DNA of 51,328 nt, from assembly GCF_003574085.1 (NCBI RefSeq), contig NZ_QWKZ01000002.1:1-51328 (forward strand), read 5' to 3'. Numbering within the stretch: the stretch's first letter is position 1; each line of letters opens with the position of its first letter. Shown here piece by piece: positions 23,027 through 36,549 of this stretch. The notes under the pieces were generated by a model. The model was not told where the DNA came from, ran no database searches, and was given only the letters and a program-made list of their open reading frames with translations. The DNA comes from Meiothermus luteus (GTDB lineage: Bacteria; Deinococcota; Deinococci; Deinococcales; Thermaceae). Both the position numbers and the translations under genes were made by a program.

Positions 23027-23605
23027 ATGCGACCGATCTTGCTTGCTTGGGCCGCGGCCATCCTGCTCCTGAGCGGCTGCAGCCAGACCGCTGTGATGGC
23101 CGCGCTTTCGGAACAGATAAAGCACCCCATCGCCACCGCCACCCTAGACGCTGGGAACAATGGACTAGCCGCCTACTACTGCAGGCGGGTTTTCTGTGCC
23201 GGGGATGACGCACAAAACCAACGGGTAGGGGGCTTCTTAGCCTTTGACCTAAGAGGGCTGGAGCCCCCCCAGGACCTCAAGGCCACCCTCCGCCTCTACC
23301 AAGGCGAAGCCCGCTCCGTCTACGCGGAGCTGGGCGAACTCTTCGTGGAACGGATTCAGGTTGAGGAATTCAGGAGCCCCGAGGCCCTCGAGGCCCCCGC
23401 CCTCACCAGCCAGACCAGCCAGGCCGATGGGGAGGGGTACCTCGAGCTTGACGTCACCCAAGCTTTCCAGCAGGCCTTGGCCGAAGGGCAGACCACACTG
23501 CAGTTTCGGCTGCGCTTTAGCCGGCCCACCAACGGGAACCACCGGGGCGACCTGGCCATTTTCGGCGCTAAGGAGGAGTACAAGCCCGCGCTAATCCTGC
23601 GCTAG
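23027..23605 (+). CDS. small lipoprotein with a DNRLRE-like beta domain
   Basis: The 192-aa protein starts 'MRPILLAWAAAILLLSGC' with lipobox LSGC. The mature part has 'GGFLAFDLRGL' followed by 'ATLRLYQGEA' and, after a loop, 'GEGYLELDVTQAFQQALAEGQTTLQFRL' (about residues 125-150, shown in parts). This succession recalls the carbohydrate-binding-like DNRLRE domain, in which a strand motif for load-bearing subunits is followed by 'lDVT.a.q.al..g'. The match is by eye. The start at 23027 is chosen for its signal peptide; TACAAA ends 7 nt upstream as an imperfect -10. Its stop codon overlaps that of the convergent DUF4832-like paralogue by 4 nt. Confidence 0.55.
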   Translation: MRPILLAWAAAILLLSGCSQTAVMAALSEQIKHPIATATLDAGNNGLAAYYCRRVFCAGDDAQNQRVGGFLAFDLRGLEPPQDLKATLRLYQGEARSVYAELGELFVERIQVEEFRSPEALEAPALTSQTSQADGEGYLELDVTQAFQQALAEGQTTLQFRLRFSRPTNGNHRGDLAIFGAKEEYKPALILR

Positions 23606-25017
23606 GGTACCCGCACGGTCTGGTTCAGCCGGTTGTACCCCGTGCCAGCCTCCCAGAGGCCCGCGTTGGCCAAACGGATGGCGTACTCTGGGCGGTTTTG
23701 CAGGCCCTGGGCCGCGTCGGGCAGGTGCAGCAGAAGCTCGTAGTTCCCTGAGGGGATGCCCGCAGGCAGCGGCTCGTCCACCAGCAGGGTCTGGGTGCTG
23801 CCGGGGTACCAGCGGCGCACATCGGTGTTCACTCCCACCGTGTAGACCTGGCCCCCCGAGCCCCGCAGGACCACCCGAACCGGCCGGGGGTTGAAGGGCG
23901 CCGCCCAGCCGTCGTTGCGTAGGACCAGGCGCAACCGGAGCCGCCGGCCCTCGGCTACCTCCGGCACCACCGACTCCACCAAGACCAGCCGGTAGCCCAG
24001 CCTGCGGGCGATGGTGTCGTAGATGCCCCATTGCCGCCAGCGATCCACGTTGCCAAAGTCGTTGGCGATGAAGCTCCAGTTGAAGCGGGCCAGCTCGGCG
24101 AGTTGGCCTTCGGGCGTCCGGCGCCCATAGGGGTCGTAGCCCTGCTCCGGCACGTCCCCACACATCTCGCCCCCCACCGGCATGTAGCGGGCCATGCTCT
24201 GCAAATAGTTGCGGTCGGCGGTACGCTGCGGGTCATCCCAGGCGTAGGTCCCGGCGTCGGACTGGTTCACCATAAAGCAGTCGTTGTGGTGCCCAAGCCG
24301 CGAGGCGATGTGGCTCGGATTGAAGGCCTCGGCCTCGGTGAAGCCGCTCGGGACAAAAAGTCGCAGGTCGTTCACGTAACGGAGCTGTATCTTCCGCTCC
24401 TGGGGAACCGCCCGGGCCAGGGCGTAGAGAATCTCCCGCTTGTCTCCATCGGAGAGGCCGCTGTGGGAGTGCCACTCTCCCCAGGCCCCCACGAACCCGG
24501 CCTGCATCACCGCGATAACATCGGCGTTGTCCCGCAGCAGCGGGGTGAGCTGCTCAATGTGCTGGAGAATCTGAGCCCTAGAAGCGGTGGCGGTCCCACC
24601 CCAGGTGTACCAGAAGCGCACCGAGGCCTTGACCCCGGCCTGGCGCATCTGGGCGAAGCGGGCACCCAGCTGGGCGATGTAGCCGTCGTCAATGCGGCTA
24701 AACTGGAAGGGCTCCAGGCTGATGTAGGCGTGAATCATGCTGTAGCCCCGGGAGCGCATCCCGGCCAGGTCCAACCCCGCCAGGCTGCGCGAGCCGATGG
24801 CGTAGCCGAACTGCACCCCCGGTCGGAAGCCCCGCTCGGGGTTGAGGAAGACCTCGTCGGTGGCCGCGTAGGTCACGGTCTTACCGCTCAGCGGGGAGGG
24901 GCTGCCCGTGCTCGAGCCCGCCTCGGCCTCGCTTTGGGTCTGGGCCCCGCAGGCCGCCAGCAACAAGGCCAGCAAGGGGGCAAGCCAAGGGTAGGGGTAT
25001 GGCTTGTTCGCTCTCAC
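23602..25017 (-). CDS. DUF4874/DUF4832-like lipoprotein (paralogue 2)
   Basis: The 471-aa lipoprotein (lipobox LAAC, Cys23) is collinear with the protein at 19830-21230. It has 'FLNPERGF', 'MQAGFVGAWGEWH', 'LGHHNDCF' and the C-terminal beta-sandwich ending '...GYNRLNQTVRV'. The Ser/Gly-rich linker after Cys23 would tether it to the membrane. Paralogues of this type may act on cell-wall or environmental glycans (inference). The GTG at 25017 is preceded by TAGCCT 6 nt upstream, a leaderless arrangement. Further upstream lies TTTTTGTAAG (minus strand of 25087-25096), matching part of the motif at the protease cluster. Confidence 0.75.
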   Translation of the reverse strand: MRANKPYPYPWLAPLLALLLAACGAQTQSEAEAGSSTGSPSPLSGKTVTYAATDEVFLNPERGFRPGVQFGYAIGSRSLAGLDLAGMRSRGYSMIHAYISLEPFQFSRIDDGYIAQLGARFAQMRQAGVKASVRFWYTWGGTATASRAQILQHIEQLTPLLRDNADVIAVMQAGFVGAWGEWHSHSGLSDGDKREILYALARAVPQERKIQLRYVNDLRLFVPSGFTEAEAFNPSHIASRLGHHNDCFMVNQSDAGTYAWDDPQRTADRNYLQSMARYMPVGGEMCGDVPEQGYDPYGRRTPEGQLAELARFNWSFIANDFGNVDRWRQWGIYDTIARRLGYRLVLVESVVPEVAEGRRLRLRLVLRNDGWAAPFNPRPVRVVLRGSGGQVYTVGVNTDVRRWYPGSTQTLLVDEPLPAGIPSGNYELLLHLPDAAQGLQNRPEYAIRLANAGLWEAGTGYNRLNQTVRVP

Positions 25018-25023
25018 GCCGAA

Positions 25024-25029
25024 AGGCTA
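25024..25029 (-). promoter_or_regulatory. -10 box of a predicted leaderless promoter (DUF4832-like paralogue 2)
   Basis: Minus-strand TAGCCT ends 6 nt before the GTG at 25017. The flanking 131-nt gap is AT-richer and also holds an ACGTTA/TAACGT inverted repeat (25049-25054 and 25068-25073). Confidence 0.45.
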
Positions 25030-25148
25030 ACGGGTGTCCTTTGGCGTGACGTTAGTTGGAGATTAAGTAACGTTTAGACCCCAAGCCTTACAAAAAGCCC
25101 AATCTAAAGAGATTTTTAGCCGTTTCTAAGCAAGCAACAGCTGTCCCT

Positions 25149-26414
25149 CTAGGGGCGCGTCAAGGCCCCTTCCAGGGTCTTCTCGTAGACCTCGAGGTAG
25201 CGGGGCAGCACCACCTCGGGACGGAAGTGGGTGATGGCCCGCTCCCGGGCGGCCTCACCCATGTTGCGCCGGCGGGTGCGGCTTTGCAGAATTTCCAAGC
25301 TGGCCTCCAGCATCGCCTGGATGTCCCCCACAGGGCACAAAAGCCCCGTCCGCCCATCCTCCACCAGCTCCGGCAGCCCCCCCACCCGGCTGGCCACCAC
25401 CGGCACCCCGCTGGCCATGGCCTCCAGGGCCACCAGACCAAAGGACTCCTGTTCTGAGGGCAGCAGCAAAAGGTCAGCCACGCTCATGAACTTCTCTATC
25501 TGCGGGGTGGACTCTAAAAACTGCACCCGGCCGGCTATCTCCAGCTCGTGGGCCAGCTCAATGGCCTCCTGGCGCAAAGGCCCCTCCCCAATCATGAGCA
25601 TCCGAGCAGGCATCCGCTCGGCTATACCAGCAAAGACCTGCAACGCATCCAGCGGGCGTTTGACCGAGCGGAAGTTAGAAACGTGCAGCACAATGGCCTC
25701 CTCGGGCTGGGCAAAGCGGGCCCGGTACGCGGGGTCGCGGTTGGGCTTGAAGCGCTCAGGGTCCACCCAGTTGTAGATCACCTCGATCTCACGCTCCACC
25801 CCTAGTTTGGCCCGGGCGTCCTGGGCCAAGGAGTGGGAAACCGCCGTTACCGCATCCGAGGTGCGCACGGCGTGCCGGGTGGTTCTGGAGAAGGCCGGTT
25901 CCTGGCCCACCAGGGTCACGTCGGTACCGTGCAGGGTGGTCACCACCTTGATGGGCAAGCCCATTTCACGGGCCAGGATGGCGCTGGTGGCGTGGGGAAT
26001 GGCGTAGTGGGCGTGCACCAGCTCAATGCTGTGCTGTTCAATCAGCTCTGCGATGGAGTTGGCCGCGGTGATGGGGGTAAGGGGTTCCCGGAAGAGGGGG
26101 TAGTCGGCCGAAAGCACCTGGTGGAAGTGCAGCGAGCCGGCTCCTAGGGGCTTCTTAAGAAGCCCCAGCCAGCGGGCCACGCTCTTGCGCGACTCCTGGA
26201 AGATGCGGCCCAACCGGCCCACAGGGTTCTGTCCGGTGGAGAGCAGGTTGCTGCTCAGGCCCATCTGGCTAAGCCGCTCCTCGGTCAGACGGAAGGGCCG
26301 CTCGGTGGCCACCACGTGTACGGTGTGGCCCAGCCCGGCTAGGGCCAGCGCCAACTCGGTGGCCACCACCCCAGAGCCCCCTGCGCTGGCGTGGCAAAGA
26401 ATGGCAACCTTCAT
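25149..26414 (-). CDS. bshA: N-acetyl-alpha-D-glucosaminyl L-malate synthase
   Basis: This GT4 retaining glycosyltransferase joins UDP-GlcNAc and L-malate in the first step of bacillithiol synthesis. The BshA N-terminus 'CHASAGGSGVVATELA' and the blocks 'FHQVLSADYPLFREPLTPIT', 'VHAHYAIPHA', 'TLHGTDVTLVG' and 'EQESFGLVALEAMASG' are present. At 421 aa it is about 44 residues longer than the Bacillus enzyme. The extra residues lie between 'PFRL' (41-43) and 'HFHQV' (96-100). The ATG at 26414 has an AAGGAGGT site with good spacing; an upstream ATG at 26438 lacks one. Other bsh genes are not in the window. Confidence 0.93.
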   Translation of the reverse strand: MKVAILCHASAGGSGVVATELALALAGLGHTVHVVATERPFRLTEERLSQMGLSSNLLSTGQNPVGRLGRIFQESRKSVARWLGLLKKPLGAGSLHFHQVLSADYPLFREPLTPITAANSIAELIEQHSIELVHAHYAIPHATSAILAREMGLPIKVVTTLHGTDVTLVGQEPAFSRTTRHAVRTSDAVTAVSHSLAQDARAKLGVEREIEVIYNWVDPERFKPNRDPAYRARFAQPEEAIVLHVSNFRSVKRPLDALQVFAGIAERMPARMLMIGEGPLRQEAIELAHELEIAGRVQFLESTPQIEKFMSVADLLLLPSEQESFGLVALEAMASGVPVVASRVGGLPELVEDGRTGLLCPVGDIQAMLEASLEILQSRTRRRNMGEAARERAITHFRPEVVLPRYLEVYEKTLEGALTRP

Positions 26415-26451
26415 CGGACCTCCTTTCAAGACCCCCATGAGCTCATCCTGC

Positions 26452-26504
26452 CTGCGCTGGTTCAGCGCAGCTTCAGGCGGAGCAGCGTCTTAGGGGTGAG
26501 TGTA
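26452..26504 (-). promoter_or_regulatory. bshA leader with hairpin
   Basis: Minus-strand TACACT (plus 26499-26504) is a candidate -10. It would give a leader of about 78 nt with a perfect 7-bp hairpin (26452-26458 and 26464-26470) and the 10-bp palindrome ATGAGCTCAT (26437-26446) before the ribosome binding site. Confidence 0.3.
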
Positions 26505-26544
26505 CGCTACCGCCAAAGGATGAGAAATTCAGTAGGCTCACCTT

Positions 26545-28044
26545 TCACCTAGGGTACAAGGCCAGCCCGCTCACCACCGGGCGTACCCCCAGCGGGCCCC
26601 CGTTGGGGTTCTTGAGCTGGCCTTTGACCCATAGCTGGGCCGAACCGCCCCCATCCATGCGGATCGCCCCCCAAAAGCCCATCTCCTGCAAAACGCGGGC
26701 CAGCGCCTCGGGGCGCATGGGCTCGGTCACGATAAAGAAGAGGCCGCCGTCCTGCGTCCAGGCCACTGCCGACTGCGCGGCCACCGCCTCCACCGGGGCC
26801 CGGTCGCGGAAGGGCTCGGCGGCGGGGTCAAAAACGTTGGCCCCGGCCTGGATGAGCAAAGGCCCGGCTTCCAAAGCGTAGCTCACCGGGGGCTCGAGCC
26901 GCACCAAAAGCCTAAGCCGCTCCCCGGTGCGGGCCAGGGGCTCGGCCAAAGGGAAGCCCAAGGCCCAGTGGCCCTCGGGAAGCTCCGCAGGGGCCGGGAG
27001 GGTGGCCACGATGCGCTCACCCTGCACCAGGTGCACCCCCTCCCCCGCCCGGCCCACCGCCCCCGGCAGGGTGTAGGCGGTGTAGCGGGCCCGGGCCAGG
27101 TTCAGCCCTACCCGCACCTGCCTCCCATCCGGGAGCTCCACCCAGGCGGCGAACTGGGGGCGGCCCGCAAAGACGCTCTCCCCTTCCCAGAAAAGCGCGC
27201 TGCGGCCGTAGGGGAAGCTCAGGGGCACCCCCTCCCGCACCCAAAGGCCGATCGGGGTGGCGGTGCGGCCGTCAAAGTAACCGCCGTTGAGCAAGGCCAG
27301 GGCCCCCGGGGCCATCTCCGGCAAGGGCCGGCGCTCCCCTGGCCGGCCCACCGGCTCCATGCGCCAGCGACCCGGCAGGGCCTGAAGGGAGTAAATGCGC
27401 ACCGGCTCGGGCGTCCAGGCCCACCGCTCGCGGTAGAAGAAGCCCGGGGCCACCTCCTCCTCCCGCTCGGGCTCGAGGTAGTACACGTCCAGCACGTAGC
27501 GGCGAGGGTTGTCCAGCAAAAAGCTGCGGTAGCGGTAGAGGCGGCCCGGCGGGGGCACCAGGGTGAGCTGGGTGGCCTCCTTCTCGTAGCGGAAGCTCAG
27601 CCCAAGGCCTGGAGGCCGCACCTCCTCCAGCCCCGGCAAAAAGTAGGGCAGGCCCAGCTCGAGCCGGCCCGGATAGGGCGTCAGCTCGGAGAGCACAGGC
27701 TGTACCACGTCGCCCCCGGGCAGGTCCAGCACCAGGCGCAACCTGCGGCCATCGGCCGAGTAGCGCACCCCGGCCTCTGGGGCCTGGACCAGCCCGGCTG
27801 CCCGCACCACCTCTAGGGGGAGCCGGTCCCCTTCCGGTGGGGGCAGCCCCGCCTCCAGCGGGGGGGTCCAGCCCAGGCCGGGCACGTAGGTAAAGCGCAG
27901 CTCACCCCGGCGGAAGGTGGTAACCTCGCCTTCCTGGACCACCTCCAGGCCAAAGCGCCCGGCGGGCAGAAGGCGGGGTGGCCCGCCCACTTGGGCGCAG
28001 GCCACCAGGAGGAGAAAGCTCAGGGCAATCGTCAAGCGCCGCAC
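26545..28044 (-). CDS. phosphodiester glycosidase (NAGPA-type) domain lipoprotein
   Basis: The 499-aa lipoprotein (lipobox LVAC, Cys16) has an N-terminal domain of about 200 residues without assignment. A C-terminal NAGPA/DUF2233 domain follows, with 'LNGGYFDGRTATPIGLWV' near 249-266 and the signature 'MDGGGSAQLWVKG' near 463-475. NAGPA domains hydrolyse phosphodiester-linked sugars or related diesters; the bacterial substrates are largely unknown. Surface location suggests cell-wall or exopolysaccharide phosphodiesters (inference). It is the last gene of the minus-strand lipoprotein run, 45 nt after the astacin gene, and starts with GTG. Unlike the three genes upstream, it contains CTCGAG sites. 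Confidence 0.8.
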   Translation of the reverse strand: MRRLTIALSFLLLVACAQVGGPPRLLPAGRFGLEVVQEGEVTTFRRGELRFTYVPGLGWTPPLEAGLPPPEGDRLPLEVVRAAGLVQAPEAGVRYSADGRRLRLVLDLPGGDVVQPVLSELTPYPGRLELGLPYFLPGLEEVRPPGLGLSFRYEKEATQLTLVPPPGRLYRYRSFLLDNPRRYVLDVYYLEPEREEEVAPGFFYRERWAWTPEPVRIYSLQALPGRWRMEPVGRPGERRPLPEMAPGALALLNGGYFDGRTATPIGLWVREGVPLSFPYGRSALFWEGESVFAGRPQFAAWVELPDGRQVRVGLNLARARYTAYTLPGAVGRAGEGVHLVQGERIVATLPAPAELPEGHWALGFPLAEPLARTGERLRLLVRLEPPVSYALEAGPLLIQAGANVFDPAAEPFRDRAPVEAVAAQSAVAWTQDGGLFFIVTEPMRPEALARVLQEMGFWGAIRMDGGGSAQLWVKGQLKNPNGGPLGVRPVVSGLALYPR

Positions 28045-28089: not shown

Positions 28090-29517
28090 TCAGGGCACGG
28101 AGGCGCAGGCCCTGGCCGGGGTGGGGTTGCTCACCGTGGAGTCAAGGGGGGTGAGGGTGAGGCAGACCTCCTGGCCCCTCCGCCCGTCCAGGCGCATAAG
28201 TGCCGTGTACACGGGTTGGGCCCGGTCGGTCTGAATCTCCGCGTAGGGCAGGCCGATGGCTTGCTCCCCAACCTGGGCCTCCACGCGGTACCGCTTGGCC
28301 CAGCTCCACTCGGCAAAGGTGAGCTGCAGGGTCTCAGGCCCAGCCGGGTCAAGGCGCAGCAGGGTCATCTGGCGGGGCTCCTGGTTGCGGTAGCAGGCCC
28401 GGGTGCGGGCCAGGCTGTAGGCCTGGCCCCCTTCCAGCTCTATCCGCAGGGTGTCGGTCTCCAGGCCCGGCGCGGCGCAGGCCTTGGCCTGAAGGCTAAC
28501 CTGTACGCTTTGCCCAGGGACCAGTACCCCGTCCGGGGGCGCGGCCCCGGCCAGCCAGCCCCCGCCCACCTCCATCCTCAGCACCCGCAGCGGCACTGCC
28601 CCCACGTTGCGGAGCTCTTGGGATAGAGGGTAGGCCCCGGTCTGGGTGGTCTGGTGGAACCAGCCCTGTAGGCGCAAAAGAGGCGTTCCGTAGTACGTTT
28701 GGATGGCGGTGATATCCCCCTGGCTCAGCCCCTGGCGCTGCCCTATCCGCTCCAGGGGTACCCCGTTTTTGGGCCGGATGGTGGGCTCTCCGTTTACGGA
28801 GAAGGCCCGGGCTGAGTAGTGCATGATAGAGTCGTAGTCGTACGGCCCTTGGAGCTGCCCGTTGAGGCCAATCTTGTCAAAGTTGTGGCGCTGGTCTTCT
28901 CTGATGTTTTCCCAGAGAATCTCCACGTACTCGTCGCGGTCGGCCCGGCTCTGCTCGTGCCAGAAGCCCAGGGCGTGCAGGATTTCGTGCACTACCGTGC
29001 CCACAAGGGGCACCCCGTCCTGGCCGCAGTAGACGTCCAGGTTCTGCGGCCCGCCCACGCGCCCTATCCGTGACCAGCAGCTCCCCGGGTCGCCGTCCAC
29101 CATAAACTGCACGTAGTCGGCCTCGCTGGTGCGCTCCACGAAGCGGATGGGGGTCTTTTCCTCAATGTGGGCGATGGCCTGGCGGATGCGCTCCCGCTGG
29201 GCCTCGTTCACCTGGGGGTCCACCGTGTAGGGCACCCGCCCCCCGGGCCACAGGTAGCCATAGGAGAAGGGCTCAAAGGTGAACCCGAGCGCCCCAACCC
29301 CCTCGGGCCGGGCCACCCCCTGTCGCGGAACCAGGATGTCCCCCTCCACCAGAAGGTGGTGGGGGTCGTCCGGGATCACCTGGCCCATGAGCTGCGCCTC
29401 GCGCCCGTCCGGCAGGGCCACCCAGACCGGCTCCCAGTGCACCTCTTGGCCCCGCTCAGGACCGGTGAGCTGGGCGCAACCCGCCAGCAACAAGGCTAAA
29501 ATCCACACCCTTCGCAT
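28090..29517 (-). CDS. astacin-family (M12A) metallopeptidase lipoprotein
   Basis: The 475-aa lipoprotein (lipobox LAGC, Cys14) has a catalytic domain at residues about 95-280. It contains the zinc motif HExxHxxGxxHE ('HEILHALGFWHE', ligands His177, His181, His187, Glu178 catalytic) and the astacin Met-turn 'SIMHYSARAF' (Met232, Tyr234). The propeptide region lies before residue 95. The C-terminal half has two beta-rich segments, probably substrate- or surface-binding. It would cleave extracellular proteins. The SD-like GGAGGTGA just before the ATG overlaps the end of the preceding 225-aa gene (3-nt gap), so the two are translationally coupled. Confidence 0.92.
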   Translation of the reverse strand: MRRVWILALLLAGCAQLTGPERGQEVHWEPVWVALPDGREAQLMGQVIPDDPHHLLVEGDILVPRQGVARPEGVGALGFTFEPFSYGYLWPGGRVPYTVDPQVNEAQRERIRQAIAHIEEKTPIRFVERTSEADYVQFMVDGDPGSCWSRIGRVGGPQNLDVYCGQDGVPLVGTVVHEILHALGFWHEQSRADRDEYVEILWENIREDQRHNFDKIGLNGQLQGPYDYDSIMHYSARAFSVNGEPTIRPKNGVPLERIGQRQGLSQGDITAIQTYYGTPLLRLQGWFHQTTQTGAYPLSQELRNVGAVPLRVLRMEVGGGWLAGAAPPDGVLVPGQSVQVSLQAKACAAPGLETDTLRIELEGGQAYSLARTRACYRNQEPRQMTLLRLDPAGPETLQLTFAEWSWAKRYRVEAQVGEQAIGLPYAEIQTDRAQPVYTALMRLDGRRGQEVCLTLTPLDSTVSNPTPARACASVP

Positions 29518-29520
29518 CGT

Positions 29521-30198
29521 TCACCTCCCGCACCCAGCCAGGCAGGGGGCCGCGGCCAGGGTGAAGTCCAGGGTTCGCTCCAACGTCCCCACCCGCACGC
29601 TCAGACGGGCCGGAGCGGCTAGGTAGGACCACACCTGTCTCACCTCCGGCCCCTTAAGCTCCAGCACCAACCGCTCGGGGCCGGAGCGCTCGGGCAGGTA
29701 GCGGTAGGCCACCTGGTCCACTGCGCCGCCCACCAGGGCCCCACTCAGGACCACCGACCAGGCCGCCGGGGGTGCGTTGAAACCCCCCGTGGGCCGCAGC
29801 CCCACGGCCAGCTCCACGGTCGTTCCCGCCGGCACCACCACCGGGTCGGGCACCTGGCCCATGGAAAACTCGCCCACCCGGGCCTCAAAGCGGGCCTCCA
29901 CCCGCCGATCCTGGGCCATCTGGAGGGTACAACCCCCGTAGCCCGCACAATCCCCTGCCCAGCCGGCGAAGAAGAAGTTCCCCTCGGGCCAGGCCCGGAG
30001 CTCCACGGTCTGGTCGGGGCCCAGGCGGTAGGTGCAGGCCTGCCCGGAGGGACAGACCTCGCTCTTCCCGCTATAGCGGAGCTCCACCCGGCCCCCTTGG
30101 CCCACCTGCAGGGCCAGCTCCTTCAGGTTCAGGCTGGCCTGGGGCCCGCTGCAGGCTGCAAGTCCACCCACCAACCACAAGAACACCCAATGCCGCAC
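29521..30198 (-). CDS. small lipoprotein with a bacterial-repeat (Cys-pair) domain
   Basis: The 225-aa lipoprotein (lipobox LAAC, Cys16) has two parts. Residues about 20-107 resemble the secreted 'bacterial repeat' unit: 'GWAGDCAGYGGCTLQMAQDRRVEARF', seen here in halves, with two Cys that likely form a disulfide. Residues about 110-225 form a second beta-rich segment with a final 'CLAGC' pair. No enzymatic motif is seen. It sits directly in front of the astacin gene and could be its partner, inhibitor or anchor (inference). It starts with GTG after an AGGAGGTGA ribosome binding site. Confidence 0.6.
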   Translation of the reverse strand: MRHWVFLWLVGGLAACSGPQASLNLKELALQVGQGGRVELRYSGKSEVCPSGQACTYRLGPDQTVELRAWPEGNFFFAGWAGDCAGYGGCTLQMAQDRRVEARFEARVGEFSMGQVPDPVVVPAGTTVELAVGLRPTGGFNAPPAAWSVVLSGALVGGAVDQVAYRYLPERSGPERLVLELKGPEVRQVWSYLAAPARLSVRVGTLERTLDFTLAAAPCLAGCGR

Positions 30199-30256: not shown

Positions 30257-31789
30257 TCATGGCAGGGTGCACGCCGTATTCAACAAGTCCACCTGCCCGT
30301 AGAGTCCGTTCGCATCCCCGTAGTCGGTGCCGTTCCCTGCGGGAGGGAAATCAAAAAGCACTTGGCCGCTTGAGGAGCAGTGTACCTGGCCCCCCGCATC
30401 TATGGCCAGGAAGTAGTACCGCCCCACCATTGGAGGCACCGCCGGCACCAGGATGCGGTAGCGCCCAGCACTGTCGGCGATGGCGATGTTGAAGGCCAGG
30501 AGGTTGTCCCGGTTGAGCACCGCCAGCACCAGGGCGCCCGATTCGGTCTGGCCGTAGAGGTGGTACATGTCGTCGGCCAGGATTTGGCCATTCCCATAGT
30601 TCAGGTCGCTATCGCCCAGGGTGCTAAGGGGGTTATTCGGGTCGATGGCCGCCTCCAGGTGGAAGGTGGGGAAGAGGGGGAAGCCCAGCTTGGTGAGGTC
30701 AAAGAGGCCCACATCGGTCATGAGGGAGAGGACGTTCTGCGCAGCCTGACCCTTCTTTTTGGCGGTCTGCACCACGTAGCGTCCCACGCCCTCACCCGCC
30801 TCGGTGCCGTACTCCAGGGTGCCCAGGCCTAGGAGGTCGGCGGTGGCGTTCTCCAGGTCGTTGGGGTTGCTCACCTCCAGGGTCAGGCCCAGGGCGTACT
30901 GGTACATGAACTGCTGGGCCCCGTCGGGGTTGTAGCCCCCCATCCCACCGCTCGCACTCAGGCCGGGAATGTCCCACTGGAAAGTAGCCTGCACCTTAGG
31001 CCGGGCGGTGTTGGCCGCGTCGCCGCAGTTGTCCACCGGGTTGATGACCCCATCCCCGTCGCTGTCCGTTTTGAAGGTGTTCTGGGTGGCGCTGTCGGTT
31101 TTGAGGCCGGCGGCCGTCACCTGGCTTTGCGCCGAGGCGTTGTGGCCGGTGTCCTCGCTGGCGGCAAAGAGCCCCACCTTCTGGGGTGCGGCCAGGCTGG
31201 CCCCGCTGGCCTGGGCGGAGAAGTTGAACAGGGCCAGCTTGTTGTCGCTGCTGTTCTGGGCGTTCTTCTGGCCCTTCTGGCCGTTCGTAGCGGTGGCTGG
31301 GGTGGGGTCTACCTCCAGAGGGCTCTCGCAGATGGTGGAGTTCCCCTCCTGGTGGGCCACCACCAAGAGGGTGTCCTGGCCGGTGGGCACATCCCCCTCA
31401 AAGTTGCCCTGGGCGTCCACATCCATCTGGGCCACAATCTTGCCGTCCTTGTCCACCGCCACTACCTTTTTCTCGTCGGTGTCGAAGAGGGCCTTCTTGC
31501 CAGCCTGGGTCGCCAGGGCCTCTGAGAGCACCAGGGCGTTGAGCCCGCGGATGGGATCCTGCTGCAGGCCCAGCCGCTGGCGCAGCAGCTGGTTCACCCC
31601 CTGCACCCCCAGGCTCTGCAGGAGCTGAAGGCCCTGGGGGGCCTGCTGCGGGCTCAGGCTGTACTTCGTGCCCCCGTTCAGCGACCCCTGGACGCGGGCG
31701 TTGTTCCCTCCACCGCCCCCGCAGGCCGCCAGGGCGAGCACCCCAGCCAGCGTAAGAAGAATCCCTAGACCACTCCTCCTCTGGTTCAT
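30257..31789 (-). CDS. 510-aa lipoprotein with a calcium-binding-like motif
   Basis: The lipoprotein has lipobox LAAC (Cys23) followed by a Gly/Asn-rich linker. An unassigned region with a Gln/Asn/Ser-rich stretch spans about 170-200. A 'DSDGDGVINPVDNC' motif near 243-256 has the thrombospondin-type-3 or Ca2+-binding pattern. A C-terminal half with many aromatic and Asp residues follows. No enzyme family is recognised. It uses more Gln, Asn, Lys and Thr than its neighbours. It has its own copy of the 36-bp promoter motif upstream (31809-31844) and a GGAGG ribosome binding site. Being membrane-anchored beside two proteases, it could be a substrate-binding or scaffold protein (inference). Confidence 0.6.
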   Translation of the reverse strand: MNQRRSGLGILLTLAGVLALAACGGGGGNNARVQGSLNGGTKYSLSPQQAPQGLQLLQSLGVQGVNQLLRQRLGLQQDPIRGLNALVLSEALATQAGKKALFDTDEKKVVAVDKDGKIVAQMDVDAQGNFEGDVPTGQDTLLVVAHQEGNSTICESPLEVDPTPATATNGQKGQKNAQNSSDNKLALFNFSAQASGASLAAPQKVGLFAASEDTGHNASAQSQVTAAGLKTDSATQNTFKTDSDGDGVINPVDNCGDAANTARPKVQATFQWDIPGLSASGGMGGYNPDGAQQFMYQYALGLTLEVSNPNDLENATADLLGLGTLEYGTEAGEGVGRYVVQTAKKKGQAAQNVLSLMTDVGLFDLTKLGFPLFPTFHLEAAIDPNNPLSTLGDSDLNYGNGQILADDMYHLYGQTESGALVLAVLNRDNLLAFNIAIADSAGRYRILVPAVPPMVGRYYFLAIDAGGQVHCSSSGQVLFDFPPAGNGTDYGDANGLYGQVDLLNTACTLP

Positions 31790-31808
31790 AGGCTTGCACC
31801 TCCGGCTC

Positions 31809-31844
31809 CTACCCTAGCGGCTCTCCCCTTACAAAACCCTTAAC
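31809..31844 (-). promoter_or_regulatory. 36-bp composite promoter motif, copy B (510-aa lipoprotein gene)
   Basis: On the minus strand GTTAAGG, one base, TTTTGTAAG, nine bases and GCTAGGGTAG. The TAGGGT inside can serve as a -10 box 21 nt before the ATG at 31789. Copy A at 33865-33900 has the same parts and spacing. Confidence 0.6.
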
Positions 31845-31852
31845 CGCAGGGC

Positions 31853-33361
31853 CTAGGGCCCCAAAGCCCGGCCCACATCCAGCAGGCGCATCTCGCAAGC
31901 CTGGGGGGCGCAGTTCTCCGGTGGCAGGGGCTGGGCCCGGCTGCGCAGCCGCTCGGCCAGGCCGGCAGGGGACAGGCCGGGTTCGCGGGAGAGGAGCAAG
32001 GCTGCCGCCCCGCTCACCAAAGGCGCGGCAAAGGAGGTGCCCTGGGCGTAGACATACCCCGGGGCCCCTTGGGCAAACCCCAGGCTGAGCAGGCCGTCGG
32101 GCTGGCCGTCGTTGTCGTCGTCGCGTGAAAGCGCCCCACCGGGCGCGTAAAGGTCTACCCGGGGGCCGTAGTTGGAGTAGCTCGCCCGCCGGTTCAGGGC
32201 GTCGGTGGCCCCCACCGCCACCACCCCGGGGCAGGAGGCCGGCTCAAAGCCCTCCGCAGGGCGGTTCTGGTTGCCCGCCGCGGCCACCAGCACCACCCCC
32301 AGGGCCAGCACCCGCTGGGTGGCCTCGTACCAGGGGGAGCCCGGCGGGCAGCTCCCCTCCCCGCCAAAAGAAAGGTTGATCGCCCGCACCGGATAGGGGT
32401 TGAGCGGCACCCCGGGCACCGGCAGCCCAGCCAGCCACAGGAGGGCCTCTATAGCATCGGCGTCCTCCCCCTCAGACCCGCCAAAGGCCCGGGCCATCAC
32501 CCCCCTAGCCCCCCAGTGCACCCCGGCGATGCCCCTTTGGTTGTCGCTTCGGGCCAGCATCAGGCCTATCACCTGGGTGCCGTGAAAGCCGGTTGTCTCT
32601 CCCTTCTGCAAGGGCTCGCTGGGGTCGGGGTCGCGCCCATCGCAGTCGCCCGCTGCCTGGGGGTCGCTCACGAAGTCGTACCCCTCTACCCCCTCCAGGT
32701 CGGGGTGGGGCAGCACCCCGGAGTCCACCGCCCCTATCCAGATGGGCTTCTCCGCCCCGGTTTCGGTGTCCCAGGCCTGCTCCATGCCGATGGCCCGCAG
32801 GTACCACTGCCGGGGGTAGAGGGGGTCGTTGGGCTGCCGGAAAAGGCGCAGCCGCCGGTGGCGCAGCCCAGCCGGGGCGGGCCCCTCCCGCAGGCGGTAA
32901 AGGTCGAAGCCGGGCAGGGCCGAGGGGCGCACCCGCTCGAGCCCGGCCGGCACCGAGGTCCCCTCCCGCAGCAGGTAGGTGGCGCCGCCGGCCGCAGCGC
33001 AGGCCCGCACCACCCGCAGGGCGAAGCCCAGCCGAAGCTCCCCCCGCCCCCAGCGCACCCACAGGGCAGGGGTATAGTCGCCCGCGGGGGTCTCGGGAGG
33101 AACCCGCAAAGGGAGGTCAAGCGAGGTGGGGTAGGCCACCTCCAGGGCCTCCTGGCCCAGGCTAAGCCCCTCGGGCGGCCCCTCCAGGGCCAACCGCACG
33201 GCGAAGGAGGCCCCCGGAGGAGGGTTCAGCCGCAGCCGCAGCGCGGCGCTTCCGCCGGCGTCGGCCACCAAGCGGGGGGGCTCGAGGAAGGCCTCGAGCC
33301 CCCGCTCCCCGGCGCAGCCGGCCAGCGCCAGCCCCAGGCCTAGGAGGACAAACCGCTGCAT
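31853..33361 (-). CDS. subtilisin-family (S8) serine peptidase lipoprotein
   Basis: The 502-aa lipoprotein (lipobox LAGC, Cys16) has an N-terminal immunoglobulin-like segment (about 25-118), a propeptide-like stretch and a complete S8 domain. The catalytic triad is Asp213 ('GAVDSGVLPHPDL'), His260 ('GFHGTQVIGL') and Ser443 ('GTSFAAPLVSG'), with oxyanion Asn364. An Asp-rich insert 'DDDNDGQPDG' at 414-423 looks Ca2+-binding. Most members are secreted; the lipobox tethers this one to the cell surface. Its ATG lies 7 nt after the stop of the small exported protein, so it shares that transcript. Confidence 0.92.
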   Translation of the reverse strand: MQRFVLLGLGLALAGCAGERGLEAFLEPPRLVADAGGSAALRLRLNPPPGASFAVRLALEGPPEGLSLGQEALEVAYPTSLDLPLRVPPETPAGDYTPALWVRWGRGELRLGFALRVVRACAAAGGATYLLREGTSVPAGLERVRPSALPGFDLYRLREGPAPAGLRHRRLRLFRQPNDPLYPRQWYLRAIGMEQAWDTETGAEKPIWIGAVDSGVLPHPDLEGVEGYDFVSDPQAAGDCDGRDPDPSEPLQKGETTGFHGTQVIGLMLARSDNQRGIAGVHWGARGVMARAFGGSEGEDADAIEALLWLAGLPVPGVPLNPYPVRAINLSFGGEGSCPPGSPWYEATQRVLALGVVLVAAAGNQNRPAEGFEPASCPGVVAVGATDALNRRASYSNYGPRVDLYAPGGALSRDDDNDGQPDGLLSLGFAQGAPGYVYAQGTSFAAPLVSGAAALLLSREPGLSPAGLAERLRSRAQPLPPENCAPQACEMRLLDVGRALGP

Positions 33362-33368
33362 TCAGCGC

Positions 33369-33833
33369 TCAGGGGTAGACCCGCAGCCCCGCGCGCATGT
33401 TAATTGCGAAAACGGTCTGTCCGCCAAACGTCACAGTAGGCAGGGTGTCCACCACCAGCGAGACATTCCGGTTGACAGGGTATTCCAGCCCCACTTGCGC
33501 CTGCACGGCAAAGGTGGTGGTTCCCCCACCGAAGTTGGCCCTAAAGCCCAGCCCCGCCTGGGGTATGATGCCCGAGCGGCCAAAGCTAAAAAGCGCGCCC
33601 GCCGACAGATTAAAGCTGGCGGTACCTTGCTCTACATTTATCCCAGCTCCACCCTTGAGGCCAAAGGGCCCCGCCAGCTCCTTCACGCCGCCCGAAAGAT
33701 CCAGCTGCAGCCCAAACTGCGTGGGGTTGGTGAAGGTAAGGTCTATGCTCGAGGTCGATCCTTCCAAAAAGGCCCTTCCCTGAGCGAAAGCCGAGAGCAC
33801 CAGCAAGAAGCCAATCCAGACCAGCTTTTTCAT
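33369..33833 (-). CDS. small exported barrel-like protein heading the protease cluster
   Basis: The 154-aa protein has a cleavable signal peptide ('MKKLVWIGFLLVLSAFAQG'). The rest consists of Gly- and Ser-rich alternating strands ending '...FAINMRAGLRVYP', typical of a small outer-membrane beta-barrel. No family is recognised. The ATG at 33833 has AGGAGG about 9 nt upstream; an upstream in-frame start at 33854 is rejected. The 36-bp promoter motif (copy A) precedes it by 34 nt. It is the first gene of the run that includes the S8 protease. Confidence 0.65.
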   Translation of the reverse strand: MKKLVWIGFLLVLSAFAQGRAFLEGSTSSIDLTFTNPTQFGLQLDLSGGVKELAGPFGLKGGAGINVEQGTASFNLSAGALFSFGRSGIIPQAGLGFRANFGGGTTTFAVQAQVGLEYPVNRNVSLVVDTLPTVTFGGQTVFAINMRAGLRVYP

Positions 33834-33864
33834 CCCTAACCTCCTAAACGGCATTGCGCCAGGG

Positions 33865-33900
33865 CTAGGTTAGCCAAGGGGGGCTTACAAAAACCTTAAC
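33865..33900 (-). promoter_or_regulatory. 36-bp composite promoter motif, copy A (protease cluster)
   Basis: On the minus strand GTTAAGG, one base, TTTTGTAAG, nine bases and GCTAACCTAG. TAACCT is the likely -10. It lies between the cluster and the divergent regulator. An inverted repeat CTAACCT/AGGTTAG (33836-33842 and 33867-33873) overlaps it. Confidence 0.65.
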
Positions 33901-33945
33901 TGGGGTGTGCGAAATACCCCACAAAGCCCCATCGGGAGCGATAAG

Positions 33946-36549
33946 ATGACCCACAGTATGGCCCTAAGCTGGAGTTCCCCCACGTTCCTGGTGCGCGAAA
34001 GGCTGCTGGAGCTCCTGCCCATGACCACCGGATACGTGGTGTTGTTGCAGGCCCCGGCGGGTTTTGGCAAGAGCGTGCTGGCCGGTCAGCTCGCGGCCCG
34101 GCTGGGCTGGCGCACCCTTTGGGCCTCGAGCCTCCTCGGTGACCCTAAGGACCAGGTGGCACGGGCCTTGGGCCTGCCTTCCGAAGCCCCATGGGCCCCC
34201 CTCATTGAGACCCTGGCCCAGGAACCCACCCTCTTGGTGCTGGAAGACCTGCGGGGCGACGAAGCCCTCTCCCCCCTCCTGCGCACCCTACCTGCGCTGG
34301 TGCTCCTGGCCAGCCGGGAGGCTTTGGGCTATCCTGAGCTGCCCAAGCTCCGGGCTGAGGGGCGTCTGATACAGCTTGGGGCCCTGGAGCTGGCCTTCAC
34401 CCCCGAGGAGGCCAAGGCCCTCTTCGCCGGGCGGGACGACTGGGAAAAGGCCTACCGGATGACCGGGGGCTGGCCGCTGCCCCTCTACCTCTCGGCCTTC
34501 ACCCAAGAACCCCCCGACGCCTCAGCCCTGCTGCGCGGACTGCGGGACAGCCTGTCCCCACCCGCCTTTCGCGAAGGGCTGTTGATGAGTGTCCTGCTCT
34601 ACCTGCCCGAGGGAATAGCCACCGAGGCCACCCACGAGCTCTTCCAAAAGGGCCTGGTGCGCAAAACCCCAGAGGGCTTCCAGCTTCACGACCTGCTCAA
34701 GCGCATGGCCCAGCAAAGCCTGATCCAGGAGGTACGGGCGGTAGTGCGGACCGAGCAGACCCGGCTGCCCCCCGGCCTGCGGGCCGAGGCCCTCTGGCAG
34801 GCTGGGCTCCACCAGGAGCTGCTGACCCTCCTGGAAGAGCCCCGCACCCTGGAGATACCCCCAGAGCGGCTGGTGGCCTGGCGGGGCCTTTTGGAGAAGG
34901 GGGGGGCCCGCGCCCGGCTGCGCCTGGGGGAAGCCCTGCTCCAAAGCGGCGACCGGAGCGGCTTTGCCCTCCTGGAATCCCTAACCGACGCCGAGGAAGC
35001 CGGGCTGGCCCTTACCGCCTTGGGCCACCTGGCCTACTACTACGCCGAGCCCATGCTGGGGAAAGACCTGGAGCGGGCCCGGGGCTACCTGAAACGGGGC
35101 CTGGAGCTCTTACCCCGGGTTTCCCCCGAGCTTGCGGGGCGCTTTCTCAACGACGCGGCCCGCATATTCTTTGAAGGCGGCGAACCCAAGGAGGCCGAGA
35201 GGCTCCTGGCAAAGGCCCTGGAGCTGCTGCCCCCGGGCAGCCCCTTCCGCCTAGCCCCCCTTAACAACCTAAGCCTGCTGCGCTTTGAGCTGTACGGCGA
35301 CCTTTTACAGCGGGTGCGCACCTTAGAGGAAATCATCCCCAGCCTCACAGGCCCCCTGCAGAGCAACCGGCCGGGCAGCCTGCGTGACCTGGGCCGGCTG
35401 TACCTGCTTTTAGGGGAGCGCCAGCGGGCTGAGACGTACTTTGAGGAAGCCGTCCACACGCCGGGCAACCCCTTGGCCAGCCTCGAGGCGGAGATGTACC
35501 TGGCCTACCTACAGGAAAACCCCGAGGCCTTGGAGCGGCTGGTAAGCCGGGCCGGGCTGTGGGAAAGCCCCTACCTGGTGGAGCGGGGGCGGGCCTTCCT
35601 GGCCCTGCTGCAAAAAGACCCCGGCTGGGTAGAGGGCCTGGAGGGCTTTTTTGCCGGGCTGGCCCGGGCTGAGCTGGGAAAAGACCTAAGCGCCCTGCCC
35701 CCCTACCCCACCAACCGCGAGGAGCGGCTGCACTGGCACGTGGTGCGGTACCGGATAAGCCGGAACATCCAGGACCTAGAAGCCCTGCTCCACCTAATCC
35801 CCCACCAGGCCAGGCGTGTTCTGCCCGGCCTGCTGCGGCTGGAGGAGCTGCCCCCGGACCGCCCCGAGCTGGCCCAGGCCTACCCCTTACGGGAGGTGCT
35901 GGCCTCGGGCTGGCAGGCCGCGGTTCGGCTGCGGGCGCAGGAGATACCCCCTTTGCGGGCGCAGGTCCTGGGGCGTTTCAGCCTGCAGGGGCCGCTGGGC
36001 AAGGTGGCGCTGGAGGGACGCCGGCGAGAGGTGCTGGCCCTTTTGCTGTTGGGCCTAAGCCGCAGCGAGGTGGCCTTTGAACTCTGGCCCGACCTGGACG
36101 AGGAGAGCGCCCGCAACAACCTCTCGGTTTGGCTGAACCGCCTGCGCAAGAGCCTGGAGCCCTGGGGGGTGCCTACCTATCTACAAAACGACAGGCTGGT
36201 GCGGGTAGAAAGCGACCTCGAGCAGCTCGAGGCCGCCTTGGAAGTGGGCGCAGCCCCCCGGGTGCTGGAGCTCTACCACGAGCCGCTGATGCCGGGGGTG
36301 TACCTGAACGCCCTAGAGGAACGCCGGCACGAGCTAAGGGCAAAGGTGCGGGGGCTATTCCTGCAGCAAAGCGAGCCCCACTACCTTCGGCGCCTACTGG
36401 AGCTGGACCCGCTGGACGAGGAGGCTTTCTCCCGGCTGGTGGAGCTTCACCTGCTGAGGGGTGAGGAGGCTCGAGCCCTAGAACTCCAGCGCGCCTGGCA
36501 AAGGCGGCTTCGCAAGGAGCTAGGCCGCACCCAAAGAAGCCCCAGCTGA
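33946..36549 (+). CDS. STAND ATPase / winged-helix transcriptional regulator (MalT/SARP-like)
   Basis: The 867-aa protein has a P-loop NTPase of the STAND type at the N-terminus, with Walker A 'QAPAGFGKS' near 35-43 and a Walker B-like 'LLVLEDLRGD' near 97. A long helical TPR-like region runs from about 270 to 640. Near 660-760 a winged-helix segment follows: 'LGRFSLQG', 'RRREVLALLLLGLSRSEVAFELWPDLDEESARNNLSVWLNRLRKSL' (in parts), as in SARP regulators, then a short BTAD-like helical tail. This is the layout of signal-sensing regulators that bind a ligand and ATP before activating promoters. GGGAG precedes the ATG. Its divergent position makes it the likely regulator of the protease/lipoprotein cluster (inference). 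Confidence 0.8.
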   Translation: MTHSMALSWSSPTFLVRERLLELLPMTTGYVVLLQAPAGFGKSVLAGQLAARLGWRTLWASSLLGDPKDQVARALGLPSEAPWAPLIETLAQEPTLLVLEDLRGDEALSPLLRTLPALVLLASREALGYPELPKLRAEGRLIQLGALELAFTPEEAKALFAGRDDWEKAYRMTGGWPLPLYLSAFTQEPPDASALLRGLRDSLSPPAFREGLLMSVLLYLPEGIATEATHELFQKGLVRKTPEGFQLHDLLKRMAQQSLIQEVRAVVRTEQTRLPPGLRAEALWQAGLHQELLTLLEEPRTLEIPPERLVAWRGLLEKGGARARLRLGEALLQSGDRSGFALLESLTDAEEAGLALTALGHLAYYYAEPMLGKDLERARGYLKRGLELLPRVSPELAGRFLNDAARIFFEGGEPKEAERLLAKALELLPPGSPFRLAPLNNLSLLRFELYGDLLQRVRTLEEIIPSLTGPLQSNRPGSLRDLGRLYLLLGERQRAETYFEEAVHTPGNPLASLEAEMYLAYLQENPEALERLVSRAGLWESPYLVERGRAFLALLQKDPGWVEGLEGFFAGLARAELGKDLSALPPYPTNREERLHWHVVRYRISRNIQDLEALLHLIPHQARRVLPGLLRLEELPPDRPELAQAYPLREVLASGWQAAVRLRAQEIPPLRAQVLGRFSLQGPLGKVALEGRRREVLALLLLGLSRSEVAFELWPDLDEESARNNLSVWLNRLRKSLEPWGVPTYLQNDRLVRVESDLEQLEAALEVGAAPRVLELYHEPLMPGVYLNALEERRHELRAKVRGLFLQQSEPHYLRRLLELDPLDEEAFSRLVELHLLRGEEARALELQRAWQRRLRKELGRTQRSPS

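Follow-up and report, generated by a model that had tools for sequence, protein, structure and literature searches.

A cluster of protease genes in Meiothermus luteus carries the same composite promoter motif twice, which raises the question of which protein reads this motif and which genes it controls. The cluster lies in a window of 51,328 nucleotides, the whole stretch of DNA that was analysed. A preliminary description had proposed either an activator, perhaps the divergently transcribed 867-aa regulator, or an alternative sigma factor as the reader of the motif.

The repeated box and the genes behind it

Two 36-bp copies of the motif were found where they had been described, on the minus strand at 33865-33900 and 31809-31844, and their pattern did not occur in any of 200 first-order Markov (dinucleotide-based) randomisations of the window. 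In pairwise comparison the copies agree at 23 of 36 positions. These are all 23 defined letters of GTTAAGG-N-TTTTGTAAG-N9-GCTA-NNN-TAG; the preliminary description had the right number of identities, but gave 27 defined positions in place of 23. As it had noted, the spacers differ completely (agreement at 0 of 9 positions). The promoter elements are as follows.

33879 to 33900, minus strand: box 1, direct repeat GTTAAGGTTTT / TGTAAGCCCCC with an 11-bp period
33867 to 33872, minus strand: putative -10 element of promoter 1, TAACCT, at a box-relative position kept in 40 of 45 sites
31823 to 31844, minus strand: box 2, direct repeat GTTAAGGGTTT / TGTAAGGGGAG
31811 to 31816, minus strand: putative -10 element of promoter 2, TAGGGT, placed by its position relative to the box

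Comparison of orthologous loci defines the core of the motif as a two-unit direct repeat, [G/T]TTAAG-N5-TGTAAG, with an 11-bp period, followed after 10-11 nt by TANNNT. The 11-bp direct repeat is the invariant part, and exact repeats in 61 genomes were found 49 times at a period of 11 bp and 8 and 6 times at 10 and 12 bp, respectively. The T-run between the half-sites was rejected as a recognised sequence, as it varies in orthologues and lies outside the conserved core. The exact form [GT]TTAAG-N5-TGTAAG is present three times in the 2.87-Mb genome of the organism, against about 0.09 expected. All genome-wide searches were pattern searches. A search of the own genome with a 34-bp pattern and up to three mismatches gave seven matches, and the reversed control gave none. 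The best five stand before signal-peptide or lipoprotein genes with equally spaced -10-like elements, one of which is a perfect TATAAT at the identical distance. The matches are thus not a multitude of random hits in coding sequence.

If TANNNT starts at -12, the 22-bp box extends from -40 to -19 with its centre at -29.5. The direct repeat overlaps the -35 region of promoters that have no -35 element, in keeping with the earlier observation of a conserved block in the usual -35 place. The T at box positions 3 and 14 (-38 and -27) is invariant. With the repeat read as TTAAGNN, the 3' repeat is separated from the -10 by 9 bp in the window and by 8 bp in most Thermus-type sites. The final TANNNT, previously likened to a -10, is of the sigma-A type; ANNNT occurs at offset 27 or 28 in 40 of 45 distinct exact sites, and the background rate of -10-like matches is about 5%. 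Transcription may start near 33860 at promoter 1 and near 31804 at promoter 2.

A 112-bp gap separates the start of the 154-aa target gene (33833) from that of the divergent regulator gene (33946), and box 1 is located in it. A footprint comparison showed that box 1 and box 2 are invariant in three species in which the spacers diverge. Duplication of a DNA segment was rejected as the source of the likeness, given the 0 of 9 agreement of the spacers and the box-specific base differences that are conserved in the three species. A further sequence conserved in three species, GGTATTTYGCA, lies at 33901-33945 of the window between box 1 and the regulator gene (GTTATTTTGCA in G014), and is perhaps the regulator's own promoter. 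A partial third copy had been reported at 25087-25096. There ATTGGG replaces KTTAAG, so that the first repeat is missing, as is a TANNNT -10, and for these reasons the place was not counted as a site.

The genes behind the two promoters are listed below.

33369 to 33833, minus strand: target 1, a 154-aa signal-peptide protein (MKKLVWIGFLLVLSAFAQG...), with AGGAGG before the start
31853 to 33361, minus strand: S8 subtilase with a lipobox (LAGC), Pfam Peptidase_S8 6.4e-39
30257 to 31789, minus strand: target 2, a 510-aa lipoprotein (LAACGGGGG), with no Pfam family above cut-off
28090 to 30198, minus strand: genes downstream of target 2, encoding a 225-aa protein and an astacin-family protease (Pfam Astacin 4.5e-54)

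The distance from the end of the box to the start codon is 31 nt for the first gene and 19 nt for the second. Distances of 34 and 20-odd nt had been given before. The start of target 1 is placed at 33833, behind the AGGAGG, and not at the upstream ATG at 33854. Pfam gave no match to the 161-aa open reading frame 33369-33854 of target 1. Operon structure was deduced from gene spacing only. The S8 subtilase gene is probably in one operon with target 1 because the gap between them is 7 bp, and the genes of the 225-aa protein and the astacin-family protease are possible members of the target 2 operon. Beside the protease cluster, the window region 23602-28044 encodes a DUF4832/DUF4874 protein, a phosphodiester glycosidase (NAGPA) protein and a glycosyltransferase.

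A simple rule applied to the 45 distinct exact sites called the gene behind the site a lipoprotein gene at 26 of them and a signal-peptide-like gene at 10; it calls lipoproteins at 1.7% of random positions and 5.1% of long-ORF starts. One contig of 342,792 bases (G034:C2), which may be a Thermus megaplasmid, contains seven exact boxes, and at six of these the rule calls the gene behind the box secreted.

The divergent 867-aa regulator

The regulator gene and the features of its product are as follows.

33946 to 36549, plus strand: 867-aa regulator, with a MalT-like STAND NTPase, a TPR array and a C-terminal SARP domain (winged helix-turn-helix and BTA)
34051 to 34074, plus strand: Walker A motif APAGFGKS of the STAND ATPase, read in the sequence
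35947 to 36213, plus strand (approximate limits): OmpR-type winged helix of the SARP module, from profile matches to AfsR, EmbR and PhoB-family winged helices and AfsR as top Foldseek match
36100 to 36156, plus strand: putative recognition helix EESARNNLSVWLNRLRKSL, from the model helix, the AfsR alignment and the covariation table
36214 to 36522, plus strand (approximate limits): all-helical BTA (bacterial transcriptional activation) domain, from a Foldseek alignment to AfsR/EmbR of about 235 columns

The start is placed at 33946 because in an orthologue of 86% identity the upstream extension is interrupted by stop codons. The N-terminal part has the P-loop and TPR array of MalT-like STAND ATPases. 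The Walker A residues A36, P37, G39, G41 and K42 are at least 90% conserved among 24 orthologues, and TPR families of Pfam were matched. The NCBIfam MalT model gave a weak match below its curated cut-off (residues 25-69 of the 880-aa open reading frame). The SARP module occupies residues about 654-867 of 867. As a single sequence, the regulator scores below the cut-offs of Pfam BTAD and Trans_reg_C, and a profile of 25 orthologues matched AfsR over the whole SARP domain with an E-value of 9e-11, as well as EmbR and PhoB-family winged helices. An AlphaFold prediction for this module reaches a pLDDT of 92, and its six best Foldseek matches are AfsR and EmbR (EmbR 2e-5). The full-length model matched mostly TPR proteins, with the MalT complex 8BOB among the matches. 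From sequence and model, the predicted order of an OmpR-type winged helix followed by a BTA domain is that of the SARP family. The N-terminal position of the SARP domain, another trait of that family, is not shared: since the module is C-terminal, the protein is termed a SARP-domain protein and not an AfsR-type SARP.

AfsR of Streptomyces coelicolor is a large SARP with known structures (PDB 8HVR, 8JKE and 8K60). Its box consists of two 11-bp repeats at -40 to -19, centred at -29.5, with the upstream repeat over the -35, an essential T at -38 and -27, and a gap of about 8 bp between the 3' repeat and the -10 (PMC10936776). AfsR combines an OmpR-type winged helix, a BTA domain, a STAND/NOD ATPase and TPRs in one protein, as does the regulator, and the Meiothermus box shares with the AfsR box the two 11-bp direct repeats at -40 to -19, the T at -38/-27 and the poor -35 and -10. 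The predicted operator accordingly carries the marks of SARP operators, namely direct repeats 11 bp apart, a box over the -35 and a 3' repeat about 8 bp from the -10. The domain order, in contrast, is reversed, with the MalT-like part N-terminal and the SARP module C-terminal; the half-site is TTAAG/GTAAG and not that of the afs box; and the targets are surface lipoproteins, whereas those of AfsR are antibiotic regulators. Activation of antibiotic biosynthesis, a trait of the SARP family, was not found here, where box-bearing genes encode secreted proteins and lipoproteins. The phosphate-contacting W74 and K95 of AfsR correspond to invariant residues in the regulator orthologues, the equivalent of R94 is nearly invariant (Lys in one), and the base-contacting T88 is replaced by Val in the regulator.

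Other known proteins share parts of this architecture. EmbR of Mycobacterium tuberculosis (PDB 2FEZ/2FF4) has the SARP domain fold, but carries an FHA domain where the regulator has the ATPase and TPRs. MalT regulates maltose genes and carries a LuxR-type HTH, whereas the DNA-binding end of the regulator is the SARP module. MalT is the STAND archetype, with an N-terminal STAND ATPase followed by a TPR-type sensor (PMC4381067, PMC6468293), and the regulator has the same order. Within the Deinococcota, one relevant paper was found that names a SARP regulator, the SARP-family response regulator Deide_19260 of Deinococcus deserti, the targets of which still need study according to its authors (PMC3564903). 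Deide_19260 is likewise a SARP-type DNA-binding protein of the same phylum, but it has a CheY-like receiver domain, and no box or targets are known for it. No receiver domain was detected by Pfam in the 867-aa regulator, in which ATPase and TPR are present. The open literature searched contained no paper describing a SARP regulon in Thermus or Meiothermus.

Occurrence of box and regulator among genomes

Close orthologues of the regulator were defined by about 59% identity or more. Of 49 exact boxes in the 61 genomes searched, 42 belong to the 18 genomes with a close orthologue. At the family level, the box was present in 15 of 18 genomes with a close orthologue versus 1 of 19 without (p=1.2e-6), and at the genus level in 4 of 4 versus 1 of 14 (p=0.0016); these p-values are only indicative, because the genomes are related and p overstates their independence. 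The few exact boxes in genomes without a close orthologue include some that do not precede secreted genes. Distant orthologues in other families (36-42% identity) have a box of the form TTAAG-N6-KTAAG-N10-12-TANNNT in the same neighbourhood, and 16 strict sites were found in 23 regulator regions (about 0.4 Mb) versus 0.0 in randomisations. Two more sites apparently lie upstream of the regulator gene itself (L110, L111). Since most Thermus regulator regions read have no box adjoining the regulator gene, the link in Thermus rests on co-occurrence. Three boxes in a row, each with TGTAAA as its second half-site, follow the regulator gene at one locus (L099, G019:C36), and the genes behind the second and third boxes were read as lipoproteins in own gene calls. 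One regulator orthologue (G032:C1:890967-893554) is split over two reading frames by a frameshift or sequencing error.

The residue equivalent to R92 of AfsR varies together with the second half-site. It is Arg in 6 of 6 loci with TGTAAG, including one from another family (G037), and Leu, His, Met, Gln or Ala in 8 of 8 loci with NTTAAG, including one from the genus of the window (G017). The covariation of this recognition-helix residue with the second half-site consequently holds in all 14 loci.

Such covariation is hard to explain if the box is read by another protein, that is, by a different OmpR/PhoB-type regulator, two-component or SARP-like, with the box merely adjoining the 867-aa gene. 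PhoB/OmpR response regulators have the same winged-helix fold and also bind operators of 11-bp direct repeats over the -35 region, although the regulator differs from them by its BTA domain, TPRs and ATPase and by the absence of a receiver domain. The own genome moreover encodes other SARP-like proteins and has another type of box, to which a separate regulator belongs. Nevertheless, box presence tracks the 867-aa regulator across genomes and the box is kept in unrelated orthologue contexts, which together with the covariation makes another reader unlikely. Repression, in which the regulator would block RNA polymerase from an operator, is very improbable. The box covers the -35 and spacer, a possible seat for a repressor, but promoters without a -35 require assistance, the box shares its geometry with that of the activator AfsR, and the BTA domain is an activation domain. 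Activation is preferred because the promoters are weak and because of the position of the box. An alternative (ECF-type) sigma factor reading the conserved block as its -35 element is likewise very improbable, even though the block lies upstream of a -10 and is common to both promoters: it is a two-unit direct repeat with a strict 11-bp period, only 12 nt separate TTGTAA from TANNNT where such a promoter would have about 16-18 nt between its specific -35 and -10, the TANNNT itself is an ordinary sigma-A-like -10 with TATAAT at one site, and the repeat stands beside a SARP-type gene in several families.

The repeated motif is thus very probably the binding box of the divergent 867-aa regulator, located at activator-dependent sigma-A promoters without a -35 element. 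The first of the two earlier proposals, an activator, is favoured by the SARP geometry, the SARP domain, the co-occurrence, the boxes beside distant orthologues and the covariation.

Other boxes, proposed working and significance

A sister box, TTCAG-N6-TTAAG-N11-TANNNT, was identified in the own genome and relatives. In 13 genomes it covers the stop codon of another SARP-like regulator, a 573-aa protein of the N-terminal type, and because of this overlap its conservation may partly be a coding constraint. In the own genome (L088:4148-5887, contig C205), the 573-aa regulator has a SARP-type start (MLRTLGGLALEG...) and the box TTCAG-N6-GTTAAG-N11-TANNNT over its stop codon, and behind it lies the gene of another S8 subtilase lipoprotein; the regulator-box layout is found in 12 other genomes. 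Variants of the sister box lie, in divergent orientation, 23-29 bp before the genes of a third SARP-like family in eight cases. This family (about 795 aa) has a divergent TTCATGGAGCGTTAAG-type box 29 bp before the gene in several Meiothermus-group genomes, examples being G013:C3:327607-330031 and G003:C98:2889-5307. These sister boxes support a general rule by which SARP-like regulators of the Deinococcota would read 11-bp repeats of the TTAAG type. Three order-level relatives (G038, G042 and G050) contain several GTAAG-N6-GTAAG repeats followed by TANNNT, which are possibly the box of yet another regulator.

In the working proposed here, binding, activation, signal and start sites are predictions; box, period, -10 position, regulator co-occurrence, target type, domain content and residue-base covariation were taken from the sequences. 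A signal would open the ATPase of the regulator, and the ATPase-TPR part would gate the action of the DNA-bound protein in response. Two SARP modules would sit next to each other, one on each 11-bp repeat ([G/T]TTAAG..... and TGTAAG.....), over the -35 region and spacer. Standing in for the -35 element, they would keep sigma region 4 and the RNA polymerase core in place, and sigma-A RNA polymerase could then use the weak TANNNT -10. A small group of genes for secreted proteins would be turned on, most of them lipoprotein genes; the S8 subtilase gene would belong to this group, and the astacin protease gene probably so. Across the Thermus-Meiothermus group, the regulator appears to activate a small set of secreted or membrane-anchored proteins, and would do so by sigma adaptation of the AfsR kind.

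Most knowledge of SARP activators comes from the antibiotic clusters of actinomycetes, and both the promoter type and the DNA-binding module are already known from these bacteria. What is new is their occurrence in this phylum, with a reversed domain order and another half-site, together with a target set of secreted proteins and the covariation between residue and base. The Thermus-Meiothermus group of thermophiles has supplied much of the structural work on RNA polymerase, and a defined operator, a candidate regulator and a target list are now available for it, with surface lipoproteins and proteases as the suggested function class. The residue-base covariation lends itself to a test in which a single amino acid and a single base are exchanged. 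It is rather likely that the Deinococcota use a set of SARP-module activators, several of them of the ATPase-TPR-SARP type, each with its own 11-bp box near its gene (KTTAAG/TGTAAG, TTCAG/TTAAG and TTCATGG/TTAAG) and controlling secreted proteins and proteases, and that a single recognition-helix residue, Arg or not, would set the second half-site as a readable protein-DNA code.
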